The notes below the pieces were generated by a model. The model saw nothing but the letters and a program-made list of their open reading frames with translations, was not told the DNA's origin and did no database searches. The position numbers and the translations under genes are program-made. A stretch of 64,000 nt of DNA, from contig NZ_CP077800.1 of NCBI RefSeq assembly GCF_019112525.1, forward strand, positions 4,154,001 to 4,218,000. Reading direction: 5' to 3'. Origin of the DNA: Modestobacter sp. L9-4 (GTDB taxonomy: Bacteria > Actinomycetota > Actinomycetes > Mycobacteriales > Geodermatophilaceae). Shown here in pieces: positions 41,884-51,790 of the stretch (position 1 is the first letter of the stretch; each line of letters opens with the position of its first letter).

Positions 41884-42381
41884 GTGCCCCCGACCCCGCC
41901 GCCCCCGGTCTCCGCCGTCCCGCGCCGGTTGCGGCTGATCACGGCGCTGGCCGCCGCCGGCCTGGTCGTCGTGATGAGCGTGGTGGCCGTGCTGCTCAAG
42001 AGCTCCACCACCGGCGTCGTGTCCTTCCACACCTCCGACCAGGTGGCCATGGTCGGGCTGGGCCTGGCGATGGCGGCCGGCGTCCTGATGGTGGGGCGGT
42101 CGCGGGTGGACGCGGACGCCGACGGCATCCGGGTGCGCAACGTCGTTATCAACCACGAGGTGCCGTGGGCGGCGGTGCGGGCGGTGCGCTTCGACCAGCA
42201 CTCACCGTGGGCCACGCTGATGCTCACCAACGACGACGAGCTGGCCGTCTCCGCCGTCCAGGCCGCGGACGGCGCGCGTGCGCTGGCCGCGGTGCGCGGG
42301 CTGCGCGCCCTGCTCGGCGACCACCAGGCCCGGGCGGCCGCTGCCGCCCCGCCCAAGGAGGACCTGCTCTACCCCGACTGA
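41884..42381 (+). CDS. PH-domain-like membrane protein
   Basis: A 165-residue protein from GTG 41884. It has two hydrophobic helices (about 20-40 and 55-72), then a bacterial PH-like beta domain: VDADADGIRVRNVVINHEVP, WAAVRAVRFDQHSPWATLML and LAVSAVQAADGARAL. This is the usual actinobacterial PH domain (bPH2/YdbT-like) arrangement in a small membrane protein. Role unknown. It is immediately upstream of the infC promoter, which lies just after its stop. Confidence 0.8.
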   Translation: MPPTPPPPVSAVPRRLRLITALAAAGLVVVMSVVAVLLKSSTTGVVSFHTSDQVAMVGLGLAMAAGVLMVGRSRVDADADGIRVRNVVINHEVPWAAVRAVRFDQHSPWATLMLTNDDELAVSAVQAADGARALAAVRGLRALLGDHQARAAAAAPPKEDLLYPD

Positions 42382-42401
42382 GGTCCGCCGCGGGCCCGGG
42401 A

Positions 42402-42431
42402 ATGACGCAGCGGGGGCCCGCGCTGTACAGT
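42402..42431 (+). promoter_or_regulatory. infC operon promoter
   Basis: ATGACG (42402-42407) and TACAGT (42426-42431) form a -35/-10 pair with an 18-base spacer. Transcription should begin near 42438, about 275 bases before infC. Confidence 0.55.
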
Positions 42432-42437
42432 GGGCAG

Positions 42438-42711
42438 GCCTCCCCGGAGGCGTGTGAACCACCCGGTGGTCACGATCGCGAGATCGAGGCCACCGACCAA
42501 AGAGGAGCCCGCTCCCACCTGGTGCCGTCAAGGCGCTCAGGTCCCCGGAAGGCGACCGGCGTGTCCGGTCGTCGCCGTGACCGCACCCTCGACGAGGGTG
42601 CCGGTCCGGCAGTCGGCGAGTGGGCCCTGTGAGCGATCAGCTCACGGGGCCTTCTGTCGTCCATGCCCCGGGACGGGTGCGGCTCCTCCCCGCAGCAGCA
42701 GAGGAGAGGCC
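42438..42711 (+). ncRNA. Structured 5' leader of infC-rpmI-rplT, possible attenuator
   Basis: The 330-base stretch between the preceding gene and infC holds no convincing gene but folds strongly. Hairpins are visible at 42551-42575 (GGCGACCGG with CCGGTCGTCGCC) and 42583-42601 (GCACCCTC with GAGGGTGC), followed by a terminator-like hairpin at 42623-42657. After that comes a clean stretch with the infC ribosome-binding site. Ribosomal-protein L20 or IF3 autoregulation through such leaders is known in other bacteria; here it is inferred from structure. Confidence 0.55.
42623..42657 (+). terminator. Attenuator-like hairpin in the infC leader
   Basis: GGCCCTGTGAGC and GCTCACGGGGCC pair into a 12-bp stem with a GATCA loop, followed by TTCTGTCGT. 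It lies about 55 bases before infC and 185 bases after the predicted transcript start, the position of an attenuator. Confidence 0.65.
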
Positions 42712-43344
42712 ATCACCGAGCCCCGCATCAACGACCGTATCCGCGTCCCCGAGGTCCGCCTGGTGGGACCCGAGGGCGAGCAGGTCGGCATCGTGTCGAT
42801 CGGCGAGGCGCTGCGGCTGGCGCAGGACAGCGAGCTCGACCTCGTCGAGGTCGCGCCCATGGCGCGCCCGCCCGTCGCCAAGCTCATGGACTACGGCAAG
42901 TTCAAGTACGAAGCCGCGCAGAAGGCCCGCGAGGCCCGGCGGAACCAGGCGCTCACCGTCATCAAGGAGATGCGGCTGCGCCTGAAGATCGACCCGCACG
43001 ACTACGAGACCAAGAAGGGCCACGTCGAGCGCTTCCTCAAGGGCGGCGACAAGGTCAAGATCACCGTGATGTTCCGCGGTCGCGAGCAGTCCCGCCCCGA
43101 GATGGGCTACAAGCTGCTCCAGCGACTGGCCGGGGACGTGTCCGACCTGGGGATCGTGGAGTCGAACCCCAAGCAGGACGGCCGCAACATGGTCATGGTG
43201 ATCGCTCCGCACCGGAACCAGGTGGCCTCCGACGCCGTCCGGCGCACCGCGAAGGCGGAGAAGCACGCAGCGTCGGAGCCGCAGGCCCCGGCCGCGCAGG
43301 CTCCCGCTGAGCAGGCCCCGGCAGAGCAGGCCCCTCCGGCCTGA
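42712..43344 (+). CDS. infC: Translation initiation factor IF-3 with an ATC start codon
   Basis: About 210 residues. The conserved N-terminus [19 protein letters not shown] begins right after ATC 42712, which follows GAGGAG at 42701-42706 by five bases. No ATG, GTG or TTG lies at a suitable place; the next in-frame GTG upstream (near 42598) would be read through the hairpin. IF3 in E. coli also uses a rare start (AUU) so that IF3 can repress its own translation. The core ([59 protein letters not shown]) is intact; the C-terminal tail is a low-complexity Ala/Pro/Glu/Gln repeat. Confidence 0.93.
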
Positions 43345-43392
43345 GCCGGACGGCCCGCAGCACCGACCTGCACCACGCACCACCGAGACCGC

Positions 43393-43426
43393 CCGCGCCC
43401 GGGGGCACCAGCTGCCCCCGGCGCGG
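43393..43426 (+). promoter_or_regulatory. Hairpin between infC and rpmI
   Basis: CCGCGCCCGGGGGCA pairs with TGCCCCCGGCGCGG around CCAGC with one bulged C. It could adjust rpmI-rplT expression relative to infC. Confidence 0.45.
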
Positions 43427-43449
43427 ACATCCACGAACAGGACGAGGAC

Positions 43450-43644
43450 ATGCCGAAGAACAAGACCCACAAGGGCGCCGCCAAGCGGATCCGCGTCACG
43501 GGCACCGGGAAGCTGGTGGCCGAGCACACGAACAACCAGCACAAGTTCGAGCACAAGTCTGGCTCCCGGAAGCGGCGGATCTCCGGCACGGCTGAGCTGA
43601 ACCCTGCTGACACCAGCCGGATGAAGAAGCTCCTCGGCATCTGA
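43450..43644 (+). CDS. rpmI: 50S ribosomal protein L35
   Basis: A 64-residue protein with the standard L35 sequence: PKNKTHKGAAKRIRVTGTGK and the basic SGSRKRRISG region, ending MKKLLGI. ATG 43450 follows GAGGAC. It is the middle gene of the conserved infC-rpmI-rplT operon, with 105 bp before and 39 bp after. Confidence 0.97.
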   Translation: MPKNKTHKGAAKRIRVTGTGKLVAEHTNNQHKFEHKSGSRKRRISGTAELNPADTSRMKKLLGI

Positions 43645-43683
43645 TCCCGCCCCCCTCCCGAACGAGCAGACAGGAGCTTCCAC

Positions 43684-44088
43684 GTGGCACGCGTGAAGCG
43701 GGCGGTCAACGCCCAGAAGAAGCGTCGTACGACCCTCGAGGCAGCCAGTGGGTACCGCGGCCAGCGGTCCCGGCTGTACCGCAAGGCCAAGGAGCAGATC
43801 CTCCACTCCGCGACCTACAACTACCGCGACCGCAAGGTCCGCAAGGGTGACTTCCGCAAGCTGTGGATCACCCGCATCAACGCCGCGGCGCGGCAGAACG
43901 ACATGACCTACAACCGGTTCATGCAGGGCCTGAAGCTGGCCGGCATCGAGCTGGACCGCAAGGTGCTGGCCGAGCTCGCCGTCAACGAGCCCGCCACCTT
44001 CACCTCGCTGGTGGCCTCGGCCCGCGCCGCACTGCTGGCGAACCCGCAGGCGACCGGCGCGGCACAGGCCGACCCCGCCGCTGCCTGA
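43684..44088 (+). CDS. rplT: 50S ribosomal protein L20
   Basis: A 134-residue protein from GTG 43684 after CAGGAG. The L20 sequence [48 protein letters not shown] and [20 protein letters not shown] is intact, with a C-terminal Ala-rich tail about 15 residues longer than usual. L20 binds 23S rRNA early in assembly and represses its own operon in some bacteria. A very strong terminator follows. Confidence 0.97.
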
Positions 44089-44106
44089 GCAGTACCCCGC
44101 ACCACC

Positions 44107-44159
44107 CAGCGACGCCGTCGCCGGTGGGTCCTCGAGACCTCCCGGCGACGGCGTCGCTG
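44107..44159 (+). terminator. Very strong terminator after rplT
   Basis: CAGCGACGCCGTCGCCGG and CCGGCGACGGCGTCGCTG form a perfect 18-bp stem; the 17-base loop can itself pair in part. TCTGTC follows. It separates the ribosomal operon from the methyltransferase gene, which begins 30 bases later. Confidence 0.88.
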
Positions 44160-44189
44160 TCTGTCCGGCCCGACCATGAGAGGAACCTC

Positions 44190-44984
44190 GTGCCCGACCT
44201 CCTGACCGAGCGCTCCGCGCGGGTCGTCGCCGCCCGCAAGCTCACCCGCCGCAGTGGCCGGGACGACGCCGGGGCCTTCCTCGCCGAGGGCCGCCAGGCG
44301 GTCAGCGAGGCCCTCGCCGAGCCGGGCGCCGTGCGCGAGGTCCTCGCCACCGAGGCAGCGGCCGCCACGCACCGCGACCTGCTGGCCACCACCGACGTCC
44401 CGGTGCGGCTGGTGACGGACAAGGCCGCGGCCGTGCTGTCGGAGACGGTCACCCCGCAGGGCCTGGTCGCCGTCTGCGCGCTGCGCGACGTCCCCGCGCA
44501 GCGGCTGGTCACCGACCCGCCGCGGCTGTCCGTGGCGCTGGCCGAGCTGAACGACCCGGGCAACGCCGGCACCGTGCTGCGCACCGCCGACGCCTGCGGT
44601 GCCGGCGCGGTCGTCTTCGGGGCCGGCTCGGCCGACCCCTACAACGGCAAGGTCGTGCGCAGCAGCGCCGGGAGCCTCTGGCACGTCGACGTGGTGCGCA
44701 GCGCGCCGCTGCCCGGACTCATCGCCGAGCTGCAGGCCGCCGGGGTGACCGTGCTGGCCGCCGACGGCGGGGGAGAGGTGGCCCTGGACGCCGCCGAAGG
44801 CGACGGGCTGCTGGCCGGGCCGGTGCTGTGGTTGTTCGGGAACGAGGCGCGGGGGCTGGACCCCGCCCTCGCCGCGGCCGCCGATGCCCGCGTCCGCATC
44901 CCGATGCGCGGCCGGGCGGAGAGCCTCAACCTCTCGGTGGCCGCCGCGATCTGTCTCTACGCCACCCAGCTCGCCCAGGGGTGA
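44190..44984 (+). CDS. TrmH/SpoU family RNA 2'-O-methyltransferase
   Basis: A 264-residue protein from GTG 44190, after AGAGGA. The N-terminal substrate-binding domain (LTRRSGRDDAGAFLAEGRQA) precedes the knotted SPOUT domain with motif 1 ELNDPGNAGTVLRTADACGA, motif 2 LWLFGNEARGLD and motif 3 IPMRGRAESLNLSVAAAICL. It methylates a ribose 2'-OH in rRNA or tRNA. The location after rplT and before pheST is the standard actinobacterial place for this rRNA methyltransferase. Confidence 0.92.
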   Translation: MPDLLTERSARVVAARKLTRRSGRDDAGAFLAEGRQAVSEALAEPGAVREVLATEAAAATHRDLLATTDVPVRLVTDKAAAVLSETVTPQGLVAVCALRDVPAQRLVTDPPRLSVALAELNDPGNAGTVLRTADACGAGAVVFGAGSADPYNGKVVRSSAGSLWHVDVVRSAPLPGLIAELQAAGVTVLAADGGGEVALDAAEGDGLLAGPVLWLFGNEARGLDPALAAAADARVRIPMRGRAESLNLSVAAAICLYATQLAQG

Positions 44985-44985
44985 A

Positions 44986-45026
44986 CGGAGTGCGGGCGCG
45001 CAGGAGACCTGCACGCCCGCACTCCG
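44986..45026. terminator. Bidirectional hairpin terminator
   Basis: CGGAGTGCGGGCG-C-GCAGG pairs with CCTGC-A-CGCCCGCACTCCG around AGA, an 18-bp stem with one mismatch, filling the gap between two convergent genes. Confidence 0.85.
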
Positions 45027-45027
45027 C

Positions 45028-47280
45028 TCAGCGGTCGGCGGGGTGCTTGCCGGCGTACATCCGGGCGTCGGCGCGGTGCAGCAGCGGGCCGAACTCGTCG
45101 CCGTCCTCGGGGTGCACGGCCACGCCGATGCTCACCCGCACGGTCACCTCGCTGCCGGCCAGCTCGACCGGGTGGGTGAGCGCGGCGCGGAGGTCGTCGG
45201 CGACCCGCTCGGCCTCGACCCGGGCGGTCGCGGCGTCCAGACCCAGCAGGCCGACCAGGAACTCGTCGCCCCCGAGGCGGGCCAGCAGGTCACCGCGGCG
45301 CAGCCGGGCACGCAACCGGTCGGCGACGGTCTGCAGGAGCTCGTCGCCGGCGGCGTGACCGAAGGCGTCGTTGACCGCCTTGAAGCCGTCGAGGTCGAGG
45401 AACAGCAGCGCGACGGCGCCCCCGTCGAGGCGGGCCTGCCACAGGGCGGTCTCCATCCGCTCCTCCAGCCGGCGGCGGTTGGGCAGGCCGGTGAGCGGGT
45501 CGGTGTAGGCCAGCTCCTCGATCCGGGCCAGGTGCTGGCGGGTGCGGTCCCGCTCGGTGAGCAGCTCGCGCTCGGCCGTCACCCGGGTGGTGACGTCGTT
45601 CTGCACGCCGATGTACTGCACCACGACCCCGCGGGCGTCGTGCACGGGCGCCAGGTGGATCTCGTTCCACCACGGCTCGCGCTGCGGGCCGCGGTGGTTG
45701 AGCAGGGTCGCGCGGAACTCCTGGCCGGCGTTGATGGCCGAGCGCATCCGGGTGATCACGGCCGGGTCGGTGTCCGGGCCCTGCAGGAAGCGGCAGTTGC
45801 GGCCCAGCACCTGGGCGGCCGACTGCCCCGCGAGGGACTCGAACGCGGCGTTGACGTAGATGAGCGGCTGGTCGGGCGCGGTCATGTCGGTGATGGCGAC
45901 GCCGCTGGTGGTGGCGGCCAGGGCGCGCAGCAGCAGCGGCTCGTCCGGTGAGGGGCCGACCAGCGTCGAGTGCGCCAGCGCGGCGATGACCTCCGGTGTG
46001 GGGGCCGTGGTCTCGGGCTCCGGCGGTGCGGGCTGGGCGGCGACCCGGGCGACGAGGGAGATCCCCGCCAGCTCCACGGTGGTCCGCTCGTAGGTCAGGG
46101 CGTACTCGTACCGGCGCTGGGCGTCCGGGCCGCTGTCACCGAGGTCGCGGGCCAGCAGGGCCGCGCTGAAGTGGGGGCTCAGGACGACGACGTCCCACTC
46201 GCCGCGCACCGGGTCGTCGGGGTGCAGGTGCGCGCCGCGCAGGCCCGGCACCGGCTCCACGGGCAGGTCGGCACCGAGGGCGCAGACGAAGCCGGTGCGG
46301 GCGACGAGGTCGCGGTAGCGCAGCGTGGTGGCCGGGGTGAAGTGCCGGGCCTCCTGGAAGGTGGAGGCCACGACGCAGGTCTCGCCCAGCCGCATGGCCT
46401 GCCGCTCGAGGTGCTTGCTCAGCTCGATGAGCAGGGCCTTCGGCGCCACGCGCAGCTCGGTGCCGGCGGGCAGGCAGCCGAACGGGGAGCCGTGCACGTC
46501 GGCGTCCAGGGGGATCGCCTTGGGCAGCTTGAGCGCGGCGACCTCGCGGTCGGTCACCGCGGTGGGCCCCGGCCGGCCGAAGTGCCAGCCCTGCCCGAGG
46601 CTCGCGCCCAGCGCCATGGCCATGGCCAGGTGGGCCTCGTCCTCGATGCCCTCGGCGAGCACCAGGGCGCCGGTGCGCTCGGCGTAGCCGTTGACCGCGT
46701 TCATGATCTCCGCGACCGCCGGGCCGGGGCGCTGCTGCACGAGCTTCAGGTCCAGCTTCACGACGTCCGGGCGGAGCAGGGGCATGAAGGCCAGCGACAT
46801 CGACTCCGCGCCGACGTCGTCCAGGGCGATGCCCCAGCCGACCTCGCGGACCCGTTCGACGGCCCGCAGCAGGTCCGCCGGGCGGGTGGCCAGCGCGCGC
46901 TCGGTGATCTCCACGACCACCCGCAGCCCGGCGGGCGCGGTCGTGGCGATCGCCAGCAGGTCCTCCAGCGGCGCGGACTCCAGCACCTCGGGCTCGACGT
47001 TGACGAAGACGGTCAGCGGGGGGCCCAGCCGTGCGGCCACTGCGCCCCGCAGGGCCGCGGAGCGGCAGAGGGCGTCGAGCTCGGCCAGCCGGCCGGCGGT
47101 CCGGGCGGCGGCGAACAGCGCGTCCGGGGTGTGCAGCGGTCCCTGGGGGCCGCGGGCCAGCGCCTCGTAGGCGACGATGCGTCCGGTGCCCAGCTCGACG
47201 ATCGGCTGGTAGACGCTGTGGACGGCGCCGGTGCGCAGGACGTCGTCGAGCGATGAGGTGGGGGTGGCGATCGAGGTCAC
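45028..47280 (-). CDS. EAL-DICT-LOV-GGDEF c-di-GMP enzyme, probable blue-light sensor
   Basis: About 750 residues from GTG 47280. Domain order: EAL (about 15-240; AYEALARG, VNVEPE, EITERAL, LDDVGAES, VKLDLK, AEGIED); DICT (about 275-410; ALLIELSKHLERQAMRLGET, EWDVVVLSPHFSAALL); LOV-type PAS (about 465-570); GGDEF (about 590-745; RLGGDEF with inhibitory-site RRGD five residues before). The LOV part has the photoactive-cysteine motif GRNCRFLQGPDTD plus LLNHRG, WWNEIHL and YIGVQNDV, which supply the flavin-contact Asn, Asn and Gln. The EAL loop is DDVGAES rather than DDFGTGY, so hydrolase activity is uncertain. Divergent from pheS. Confidence 0.92.
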   Translation of the reverse strand: MTSIATPTSSLDDVLRTGAVHSVYQPIVELGTGRIVAYEALARGPQGPLHTPDALFAAARTAGRLAELDALCRSAALRGAVAARLGPPLTVFVNVEPEVLESAPLEDLLAIATTAPAGLRVVVEITERALATRPADLLRAVERVREVGWGIALDDVGAESMSLAFMPLLRPDVVKLDLKLVQQRPGPAVAEIMNAVNGYAERTGALVLAEGIEDEAHLAMAMALGASLGQGWHFGRPGPTAVTDREVAALKLPKAIPLDADVHGSPFGCLPAGTELRVAPKALLIELSKHLERQAMRLGETCVVASTFQEARHFTPATTLRYRDLVARTGFVCALGADLPVEPVPGLRGAHLHPDDPVRGEWDVVVLSPHFSAALLARDLGDSGPDAQRRYEYALTYERTTVELAGISLVARVAAQPAPPEPETTAPTPEVIAALAHSTLVGPSPDEPLLLRALAATTSGVAITDMTAPDQPLIYVNAAFESLAGQSAAQVLGRNCRFLQGPDTDPAVITRMRSAINAGQEFRATLLNHRGPQREPWWNEIHLAPVHDARGVVVQYIGVQNDVTTRVTAERELLTERDRTRQHLARIEELAYTDPLTGLPNRRRLEERMETALWQARLDGGAVALLFLDLDGFKAVNDAFGHAAGDELLQTVADRLRARLRRGDLLARLGGDEFLVGLLGLDAATARVEAERVADDLRAALTHPVELAGSEVTVRVSIGVAVHPEDGDEFGPLLHRADARMYAGKHPADR

Positions 47281-47390
47281 GTGAGCCCATCGGCACGTCC
47301 GGGCCCCACCTGGGTGTCCGCGCGGGTCCCGCCACCCCAACGGGTGATCGGAACCCGGGCGCGCGGGGAGTCCTCCGCCCGGCAGAATGA

Positions 47391-50923
<3,533 letters not shown>

Positions 50924-50959
50924 GGGAGGGCCCGTTCCCCCGACGCCCCGGGCGAGCCC

Positions 50960-51790
50960 GTGACCGGGGCCGGGGGTGACCGGGGGACGACCCTCGCCGG
51001 CACGGTCGCGCTGGTCACCGGGGCCTCGGCCGGCATCGGCCGGTACCTGGTGCAGGGGTTGGCCGAGCGCGGCGCGACCGTGGCCGGCCTCGCCCGCTCC
51101 GGGGACCGGCTGACCGCCGCGATGAACGAGGTCGCCGGGGCGACGGGTGCCCGCACGCTGGCCGTGGCCGCCGACGTCACCGACCCCGACGCGGTGCAGG
51201 CCGCGGTCACCCAGGTGGTCGCCGAGCTCGGTCCGGTCACGCTGCTGGTCAACAACGCCGGGCTGATCGACGCCGCCGAGGTGCCGCTGTGGGAGGCCGA
51301 CCCCGACCAGTGGTGGGCGGTGGTCGAGAGCCAGGTGCGCGGGCCGTTCCTGCTCGCCCGCGCCGTCGTGCCCGGGATGGTCGCCGCCGGTGGCGGTCGG
51401 GTGATCGGGCTGGGCAGCGGGCTCGGCACGCGGGGGAGCGACGTCTACAGCGCCTACTCGGCCGGCAAGACCGCCCAGATGCGGATCACCGAGGGCATCG
51501 ACCTGGCCGGGGCCACGCACGGCGTGCGCGCGTTCGACCTGGCGCCGGGCGTCATCGACACGGCGATGACGCGGGCGATGCCGATGCACGACGGCCGCAC
51601 CGACTGGACCCGGCCCGAGGACGTCGTCGCCCTCGCGGTGGCGATCGCGGCCGGTGAGCTCGACCAGTGGTCGGGTCGCTTCCTGCGCGCCGGTGCCGAC
51701 GACCTGGACACGCTGCGCCGCACGACCCCCGAGGACGCTGCCCGCCGACTACGGCTGCGCCCGTACGGGGACGCCGACCCGATCGGTTGA
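50960..51790 (+). CDS. SDR family oxidoreductase
   Basis: A 276-residue classical SDR from GTG 50960. The cofactor motif is VTGASAGIGRYLVQ, with NNAG, a serine in GLGSGLGTRGSD and the active-site YSAYSAGK. The C-terminal 30 residues after the cofactor loop (PGVIDTAM) include DTLRRTTPEDAARRLRLRPY. Substrate unknown. It converges with the diacylglycerol-kinase-like gene with only 18 bp between, too short for a terminator. Confidence 0.85.
   Translation: MTGAGGDRGTTLAGTVALVTGASAGIGRYLVQGLAERGATVAGLARSGDRLTAAMNEVAGATGARTLAVAADVTDPDAVQAAVTQVVAELGPVTLLVNNAGLIDAAEVPLWEADPDQWWAVVESQVRGPFLLARAVVPGMVAAGGGRVIGLGSGLGTRGSDVYSAYSAGKTAQMRITEGIDLAGATHGVRAFDLAPGVIDTAMTRAMPMHDGRTDWTRPEDVVALAVAIAAGELDQWSGRFLRAGADDLDTLRRTTPEDAARRLRLRPYGDADPIG

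Follow-up and report, generated by a model that had tools for sequence, protein, structure and literature searches.

Background

Blue-light control of c-di-GMP synthesis has been described for LadC, in which the linker between LOV and GGDEF is measured from the Asp of a D(I/V)(T/S) motif to the Leu of a DxLT motif and falls into two classes, of 35 and 21 residues, with blue-light activation of more than 10,000-fold in the former and about 15-fold in the latter, as set out in passages of PMC10396304. Two phosphodiesterases provide further points of comparison in portions of a 2022 review (PMC8846402), namely SL2, which responds to blue light, and RmcA, whose LOV-like domain lacks the Cys. The same portions include LOV in the Pfam family PAS_9 and call DICT a putative sensory domain without discernible purpose. 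For EAL domains, sections of PMC12943098 and PMC2994820 give the consensus of loop 6 as DFG(T/A)GYSS and describe the loop as required for activity, and in PMC2994820 the second glycine of the loop is described as making a stabilising hydrogen bond to a glutamate.

The protein considered here, from the actinobacterium Modestobacter sp. L9-4, which is a bacterium of soil and rock, joins EAL, DICT, LOV and GGDEF in that order. No description of this architecture was found in the literature searched, which was mostly open-access, and an earlier description is possible; the architecture is little studied and made of known parts.

The gene and its domains

The window analysed is a stretch of 64,000 nucleotides of the Modestobacter chromosome (NZ_CP077800.1, positions 4,154,001 to 4,218,000), and the gene lies at 45028..47280 on its minus strand, with a GTG start at 47280, a stop ending at 45028 and 750 codons for amino acids without an internal stop. 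A Pfam scan recovers all four domains above their cut-offs: EAL at residues 11-237 (46570..47250, minus strand; E 4.7e-40), DICT (PF10069) with a match at 278-379 (E 2.6e-12, 47.2 bits against a cut-off of 23.8), PAS_9 at 466-564 (E 1.8e-15) within a LOV domain spanning residues 451-568 (45577..45930, minus strand), and GGDEF at 591-746 (45043..45510, minus strand; E 3.9e-43, together with a structure match). The NCBIfam blue-light family of YtvA also aligns with residues 449-640 (E 8.1e-35), at 120.5 bits and thus below its own cut-off of 250. The highest mean Kyte-Doolittle hydropathy over 19 residues is 1.48, with no evident transmembrane stretch, and the protein is apparently soluble, so that the preliminary description of four domains in one soluble chain agrees with the domain searches. 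The full-length structural model is weak (pLDDT 70.9, pTM 0.34), and a structure search with it listed only GGDEF-containing chains, which is uninformative on EAL or DICT.

Two plus-strand genes, both named by eye, flank the locus: a TrmH/SpoU-type rRNA methyltransferase gene at 44181..44984 (start approximate), which is convergent with it, and pheS at 47397..48464, which is divergent, with 116 bp between the two starts. An Rfam scan of 42000-51500 gave no match above thresholds. This setting, with the gene on the opposite strand between TrmH and pheS, recurs in seven of eight loci of the family Geodermatophilaceae (L066-L073, one genome each; the exception is L069) and in none of 12 loci from outside it (L074-L085), and its retention within the family speaks for vertical descent there. 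An origin of the open reading frame in misassembly or chance is rejected, given the conserved site and the presence of all four Pfam domains in each of the 120 homologs listed.

Proposed mechanism

The domains, the catalytic residues, the linker length and the conservation, all read from the sequence, are best taken as those of a two-module bifunctional c-di-GMP enzyme, in which a DICT-linked phosphodiesterase is joined to a light-activated cyclase, and we consider this reading reasonably probable. The C-terminal LOV-helix-GGDEF module would be a blue-light-activated diguanylate cyclase in the manner of long-linker LadC: blue light would produce a flavin-Cys496 adduct, the LOV domains of a putative dimer would rearrange, and a coiled coil of 35 residues would bring two GGDEF domains into productive register. 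The N-terminal EAL-DICT module would degrade c-di-GMP as a phosphodiesterase, with DICT setting its output, probably by way of a small ligand or a partner, and the net effect would be to favour degradation in the dark and synthesis in blue light. Among relatives the modules occur separately or permuted, as EAL-DICT alone, as EAL-DICT-LOV and as LOV-GGDEF-EAL-DICT.

Distribution and relatives

A protein search gave 3758 matches, of which 120 were listed, one being the query; identity to it among the remaining 119 is 67-91%, across at least 96% of the length. The GG(D/E)EF motif is present in all 120, and the closest named homologs among the matches listed come from Modestobacter, then Blastococcus and Geodermatophilus. 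At the level of genomes, DICT is found in 88 of 112 Geodermatophilaceae, and 120 family matches, when read, resolve into 121 ORFs: 94 EAL-DICT-LOV-GGDEF, 13 EAL-DICT-LOV, six EAL-DICT-GGDEF, four EAL-DICT (two cut by contig ends and one the half of a split gene), two DICT-LOV-GGDEF and two DICT. The tally takes in 120 of 123 matches to DICT; the remaining three lie in L068, L072 and L073, which were set aside together with the rest of the synteny loci, and L072 holds an EAL-DICT-GGDEF ORF. In the two DICT-LOV-GGDEF cases (L131, L174) the EAL is encoded in a different frame, and L164 and L165 likewise have parts out of frame with the rest; these frame-split ORFs are either split genes or sequencing errors. 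Some genomes carry an extra copy near the intact gene (L068, L086, L106, L157), and the extra copies in L086, L106 and L157 have no recognised LOV and a changed GGDEF motif.

Across the class, DICT occurs in 36 of 296 genomes, the present one included. The 29 DICT loci of the class outside the family comprise six EAL-DICT-LOV-GGDEF, seven EAL-DICT, one DICT-GGDEF, 11 DICT without a partner recognised by the queries used and four not recognised. A third set, of named organisms, was selected with an EAL-DICT profile and overlaps the family and class genome sets; it is capped, with 79 loci retained out of 367 confirmed and 83 ORFs. Outside the family it holds 16 EAL-DICT-LOV-GGDEF, 27 EAL-DICT, one EAL-DICT-LOV, one GGDEF-EAL-DICT and three LOV-GGDEF-EAL-DICT ORFs, the 16 being from Cellulomonas, Pseudokineococcus, Kineococcus, Motilibacter, Quadrisphaera and two MAG records. 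Among these 16, the LOV Cys is absent in two (L200, L206) and GG(D/E)EF in three (L175, L191, L200). The two Kineococcus proteins without the Cys have also lost other flavin contacts (GRSARHLD), and in L206 the GGDEF motif is intact. The three permuted ORFs (L202, L212, L228), from Solirubrobacterales/Solirubrobacteraceae, show an odd GxxCSxLQG motif and linkers of 21, 14 and 21 residues, respectively. Two records labelled "Candidatus Melainabacteria" (L220, L242) hold actinobacterial-type EAL-DICT proteins, perhaps through an error of binning or naming. Since every locus was reached by way of DICT or EAL-DICT, the counts describe proteins that have kept DICT.

The full order EAL-DICT-LOV-GGDEF is thus present in many Geodermatophilaceae and in other actinobacterial genera. 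It had been thought that an EAL placed first and combined with DICT was unusual; this does not hold, since 13 of the 29 class loci outside the family are EAL-DICT or EAL-DICT-LOV-GGDEF and the EAL-DICT profile search recovered this pairing from 21 named genera. An EAL with DICT after it is the usual order in actinobacteria.

The genome of the strain itself has 35 matches to GGDEF, 28 to EAL, two to DICT and one to PilZ, as well as four to the LOV of this protein, itself included. Two of the other LOV proteins (L256, L257) are, by eye, LOV-GAF-SpoIIE phosphatase-like. The second DICT protein, L001 (G000:C1:2267800-2271800), is an EAL-DICT-LOV form with no GGDEF and with the LOV Cys and the EAL residues intact. 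Within the family this form makes up one clade found only in Modestobacter (12 of 12 tips). Four other Modestobacter paralogs of this kind (L104, L110, L142, L154) end in a tail of about (S/T)x(D/E)SPGARRA, noted by eye and absent in L001.

The LOV-GGDEF linker and the cyclase

The GGDEF domain has the residues expected of an active cyclase, that is, the GG(D/E)EF motif at 670-674 together with D629, N637 and D638, and the inhibitory RxxD site, RRGD at 661-664, lies five residues upstream of the motif; the two motifs are encoded at 45259..45300 (minus strand), both intact, as the preliminary description had them. The linker, from Asp562 (DVT) to Leu596 (DPLT), is encoded at 45493..45597 (minus strand) and is 35 residues long, the length of long-linker LadC, a class that switches almost from off to on, and it is predicted in the model as a single helix over 564-591. 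In 100 EAL-DICT-LOV-GGDEF ORFs the corresponding linker is 35 residues in 84 and 21 in 16, with no other length, whereas the upstream joints in the same ORFs range over 29-40 residues (EAL-DICT) and 46-78 (DICT-LOV); in the overlapping named set it is 35 in 43, 21 in one and unmeasurable in one. In a tree built from EAL-DICT only, which left out ORFs that do not start with EAL-DICT or have fewer than 330 residues across it, the 15 short-linker tips form one clade (support 0.95), so that the difference in length goes back to a single change, retained afterwards, rather than to many independent events. A linker length fixed in this way is good evidence for coupling of LOV to GGDEF by an in-register helix, and against such coupling at the upstream joints.

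Cyclase output is not needed everywhere, because GGDEF is absent from a 12-tip clade of the tree (support 0.992) and the GG(D/E)EF motif is changed in 14 of the 96 LOV-GGDEF ORFs of the family and cut off in one, the other 81, this one among them, having it intact. The tree used a stricter pattern for the motif, which flagged 16 ORFs against 15 in the motif count, one of these having no letters there. In eleven relatives (L091, L097, L102, L113, L117, L121, L122, L129, L130, L132, L138) RDSF or HDSF replaces GGDEF while the EAL, the LOV and the 35-residue linker are retained, and they are perhaps light-linked phosphodiesterases.

These losses bear on the strongest alternative, that the main target of light is the EAL phosphodiesterase, on the model of SL2, and that GGDEF relays or senses GTP and contributes minor synthesis. 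The GGDEF-less clade is the Modestobacter EAL-DICT-LOV group, whose 12 tips fall together and whose adduct Cys is kept in all 13 family ORFs of this form, so that a light receptor there could act only on EAL-DICT or in trans, and the ORFs with a changed GGDEF motif form a further group with LOV and EAL kept. In the present protein, however, the GGDEF and its inhibitory site are intact, and an exact LOV-GGDEF linker beside a variable DICT-LOV joint points to tight coupling of LOV to GGDEF and loose coupling of LOV to EAL. We regard this alternative as doubtful, and prefer light activation of the cyclase beside a DICT-linked phosphodiesterase.

The EAL domain and its loop 6

For the phosphodiesterase half of the two-module reading, alignment to RocR (3sy8) identifies a catalytic set of E39, N94, E124, E127, D154, D155, K175, E210, E213 and Q230, and the metal, substrate and base residues are all present. 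This protein retains every one of the 13 EAL residues checked, and so do 89 of the 94 family ORFs with its domain order. Of the five exceptions, one (L170) carries Ala at D177, and in the other four (L032, L133, L144, L165) letters are missing because the ORF is cut, split or poorly aligned. All 13 residues are likewise kept in 11 of the 13 family EAL-DICT-LOV ORFs, of the remainder L164 being split and L110 having its catalytic-base glutamate replaced by Ala, which makes L110 a candidate receptor form. Outside the family all 13 are kept in six of six four-domain ORFs and in four of seven EAL-DICT ORFs, the EAL of the other three (L056, L062, L064) being clearly degenerate. Retention is the rule in the strain's own genome, where 27 of the 28 EAL matches were read (two of the 28 rows being the same gene) and 25 of these keep all 13 residues.

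The EAL is also the best conserved domain, with a mean identity of 75% against 66-67% for DICT, LOV and GGDEF. It is retained in the 12-tip clade without GGDEF, in the ORFs with a changed GGDEF motif, and in a six-tip clade without LOV (support 0.994), all six members of which have a changed GGDEF motif as well. This persistence in the face of lost or changed GGDEF or LOV domains speaks against a cyclase with a vestigial EAL, among loci that were all found through DICT. A degenerate EAL can thus be dismissed here as far as the catalytic residues go, a judgement that does not extend to loop 6.

Loop 6, encoded at 46801..46821 (minus strand), reads DDVGAES at residues 154-160, as first reported. 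The family form is DVGA(E/D)xxSL, here DVGAESMS, which departs from the published consensus, and an acidic residue stands at the position of the second glycine (159). Glu or Asp occupies that position in 93 of the 94 family four-domain ORFs, and in the strain's own genome an acidic residue is found there in only two of the 27 EALs read, both of them DICT proteins; the variant is a mark of EAL-DICT proteins. The glutamate to which the glycine bonds would, by position, be the equivalent of E127. With the catalytic residues kept and the loop-6 glycine replaced, phosphodiesterase activity is likely, not certain.

The altered loop is the basis of a second alternative, in which the EAL is a non-cleaving c-di-GMP sensor and the protein a light-driven cyclase with feedback through the EAL and the inhibitory site. 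The activity-critical role ascribed to loop 6, the acidic residue at the second glycine in this clade, found in the strain's own genome in the two DICT proteins only, and the loss of catalytic residues in some EAL-DICT relatives (L056, L062, L064, L110) are consistent with such a sensor. A pure c-di-GMP receptor EAL is, on the other hand, not expected to keep the full catalytic residue set, and that set is kept here and in nearly all family members of the same order, which makes the sensor unlikely. Much the same evidence divides the earlier proposal of a light-switched synthase with a modified EAL: a LOV that looks competent, cyclase and inhibitory motifs that are both intact, the modified loop and the 35-residue linker all support it. 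Reading the protein chiefly as a synthase with its EAL set aside is not supported, given an EAL that keeps 13 of 13 residues, is conserved better than any other domain and survives without GGDEF, and on the preferred reading a light-switched synthase would be half of the protein.

The LOV domain

The LOV residues anticipated in the preliminary description for blue-light photochemistry are present: the adduct-forming Cys496 lies in GRNCRFLQ (codon at 45793..45795, minus strand), with N528, N539 and Q560 at what we take, from known LOV structures, to be flavin-contact positions. None of the 94 family EAL-DICT-LOV-GGDEF ORFs departs from N495, C496, R497, Q500, N528, N539 or Q560, and the LOV looks photochemically competent. 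That it instead senses redox state or merely dimerises, with no light switch in the cell, is improbable, because the Cys loss in L200 and L206 and the precedent of RmcA are set against the Cys in every full-order and EAL-DICT-LOV family ORF and the motif GxNCRx(L/M)Q in 119 of the 120 homologs listed.

The DICT domain

The DICT region, folded alone over residues 263-425 (46006..46494, minus strand), gives a model that resembles the TrmB sugar-binding and phospholipase D folds, at 8% identity and as a likeness of fold only. The HKD motif (HxKx4D) is missing from the region, as from all 146 DICT ORFs, and the domain may have a catalytically empty phospholipase-D/TrmB-like fold. A DICT profile searched against solved structures gave a best E of 0.25, with no sequence link, and Pfam at E up to 10 with six proteins returned only DICT, plus one CHASE6_C match (E 0.29) in one protein.

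The model allows a tentative extension of the two-module reading, in which two signals act on two opposing and separable enzymes. DICT, as a dead phospholipase-D fold and TrmB-like ligand sensor, would gate the EAL through the acidic loop 6, LOV would gate the cyclase through the fixed-length coiled coil, and c-di-GMP would report light against a metabolite. If this extension is true, DICT gains both a fold and a role, and the hint of a fold makes ligand searches practical. The wider reading would extend the light-linked c-di-GMP enzymes by a family from actinobacteria, one with natural variants suited to dissection (intact, GGDEF-less, LOV-less, broken-GGDEF and short-linker), among which L001 is a natural single-activity partner for tests. 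A photocycle and opposing activities in one chain would provide a clean test of a second messenger set by light, and possibly an optogenetic tool.

Comparison with known systems

Like SL2 of Synechococcus elongatus, which was compared by description only, the Modestobacter protein holds LOV, GGDEF and EAL in one chain; it differs in the order of the domains, which is LOV-GGDEF-EAL in SL2 according to portions of PMC8846402, and in the presence of DICT. With the EAL-DICT proteins of Actinoplanes, Dactylosporangium, Actinomycetospora and others it shares the EAL-DICT pair and, in most, the acidic loop 6, whereas those proteins lack LOV and GGDEF in the same ORF. The closest likeness of the C-terminal half is to MsLadC (PDB 8c05), which has a LOV domain with the Cys motif, a 35-residue linker and a GGDEF domain, and which aligns without gaps through the linker. 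MsLadC differs in consisting of LOV-GGDEF only, and its caging or interface pair D44-R174 corresponds to S487 and L618 here in an alignment made by eye. The K140V change of MsLadC, which passages of PMC12805367 describe as raising activity in vivo and deviating in vitro, falls at a position that would, through the ungapped alignment, be Leu584. Because EAL and DICT precede its LOV, the protein is not classed as a LadC, and it may work like one.
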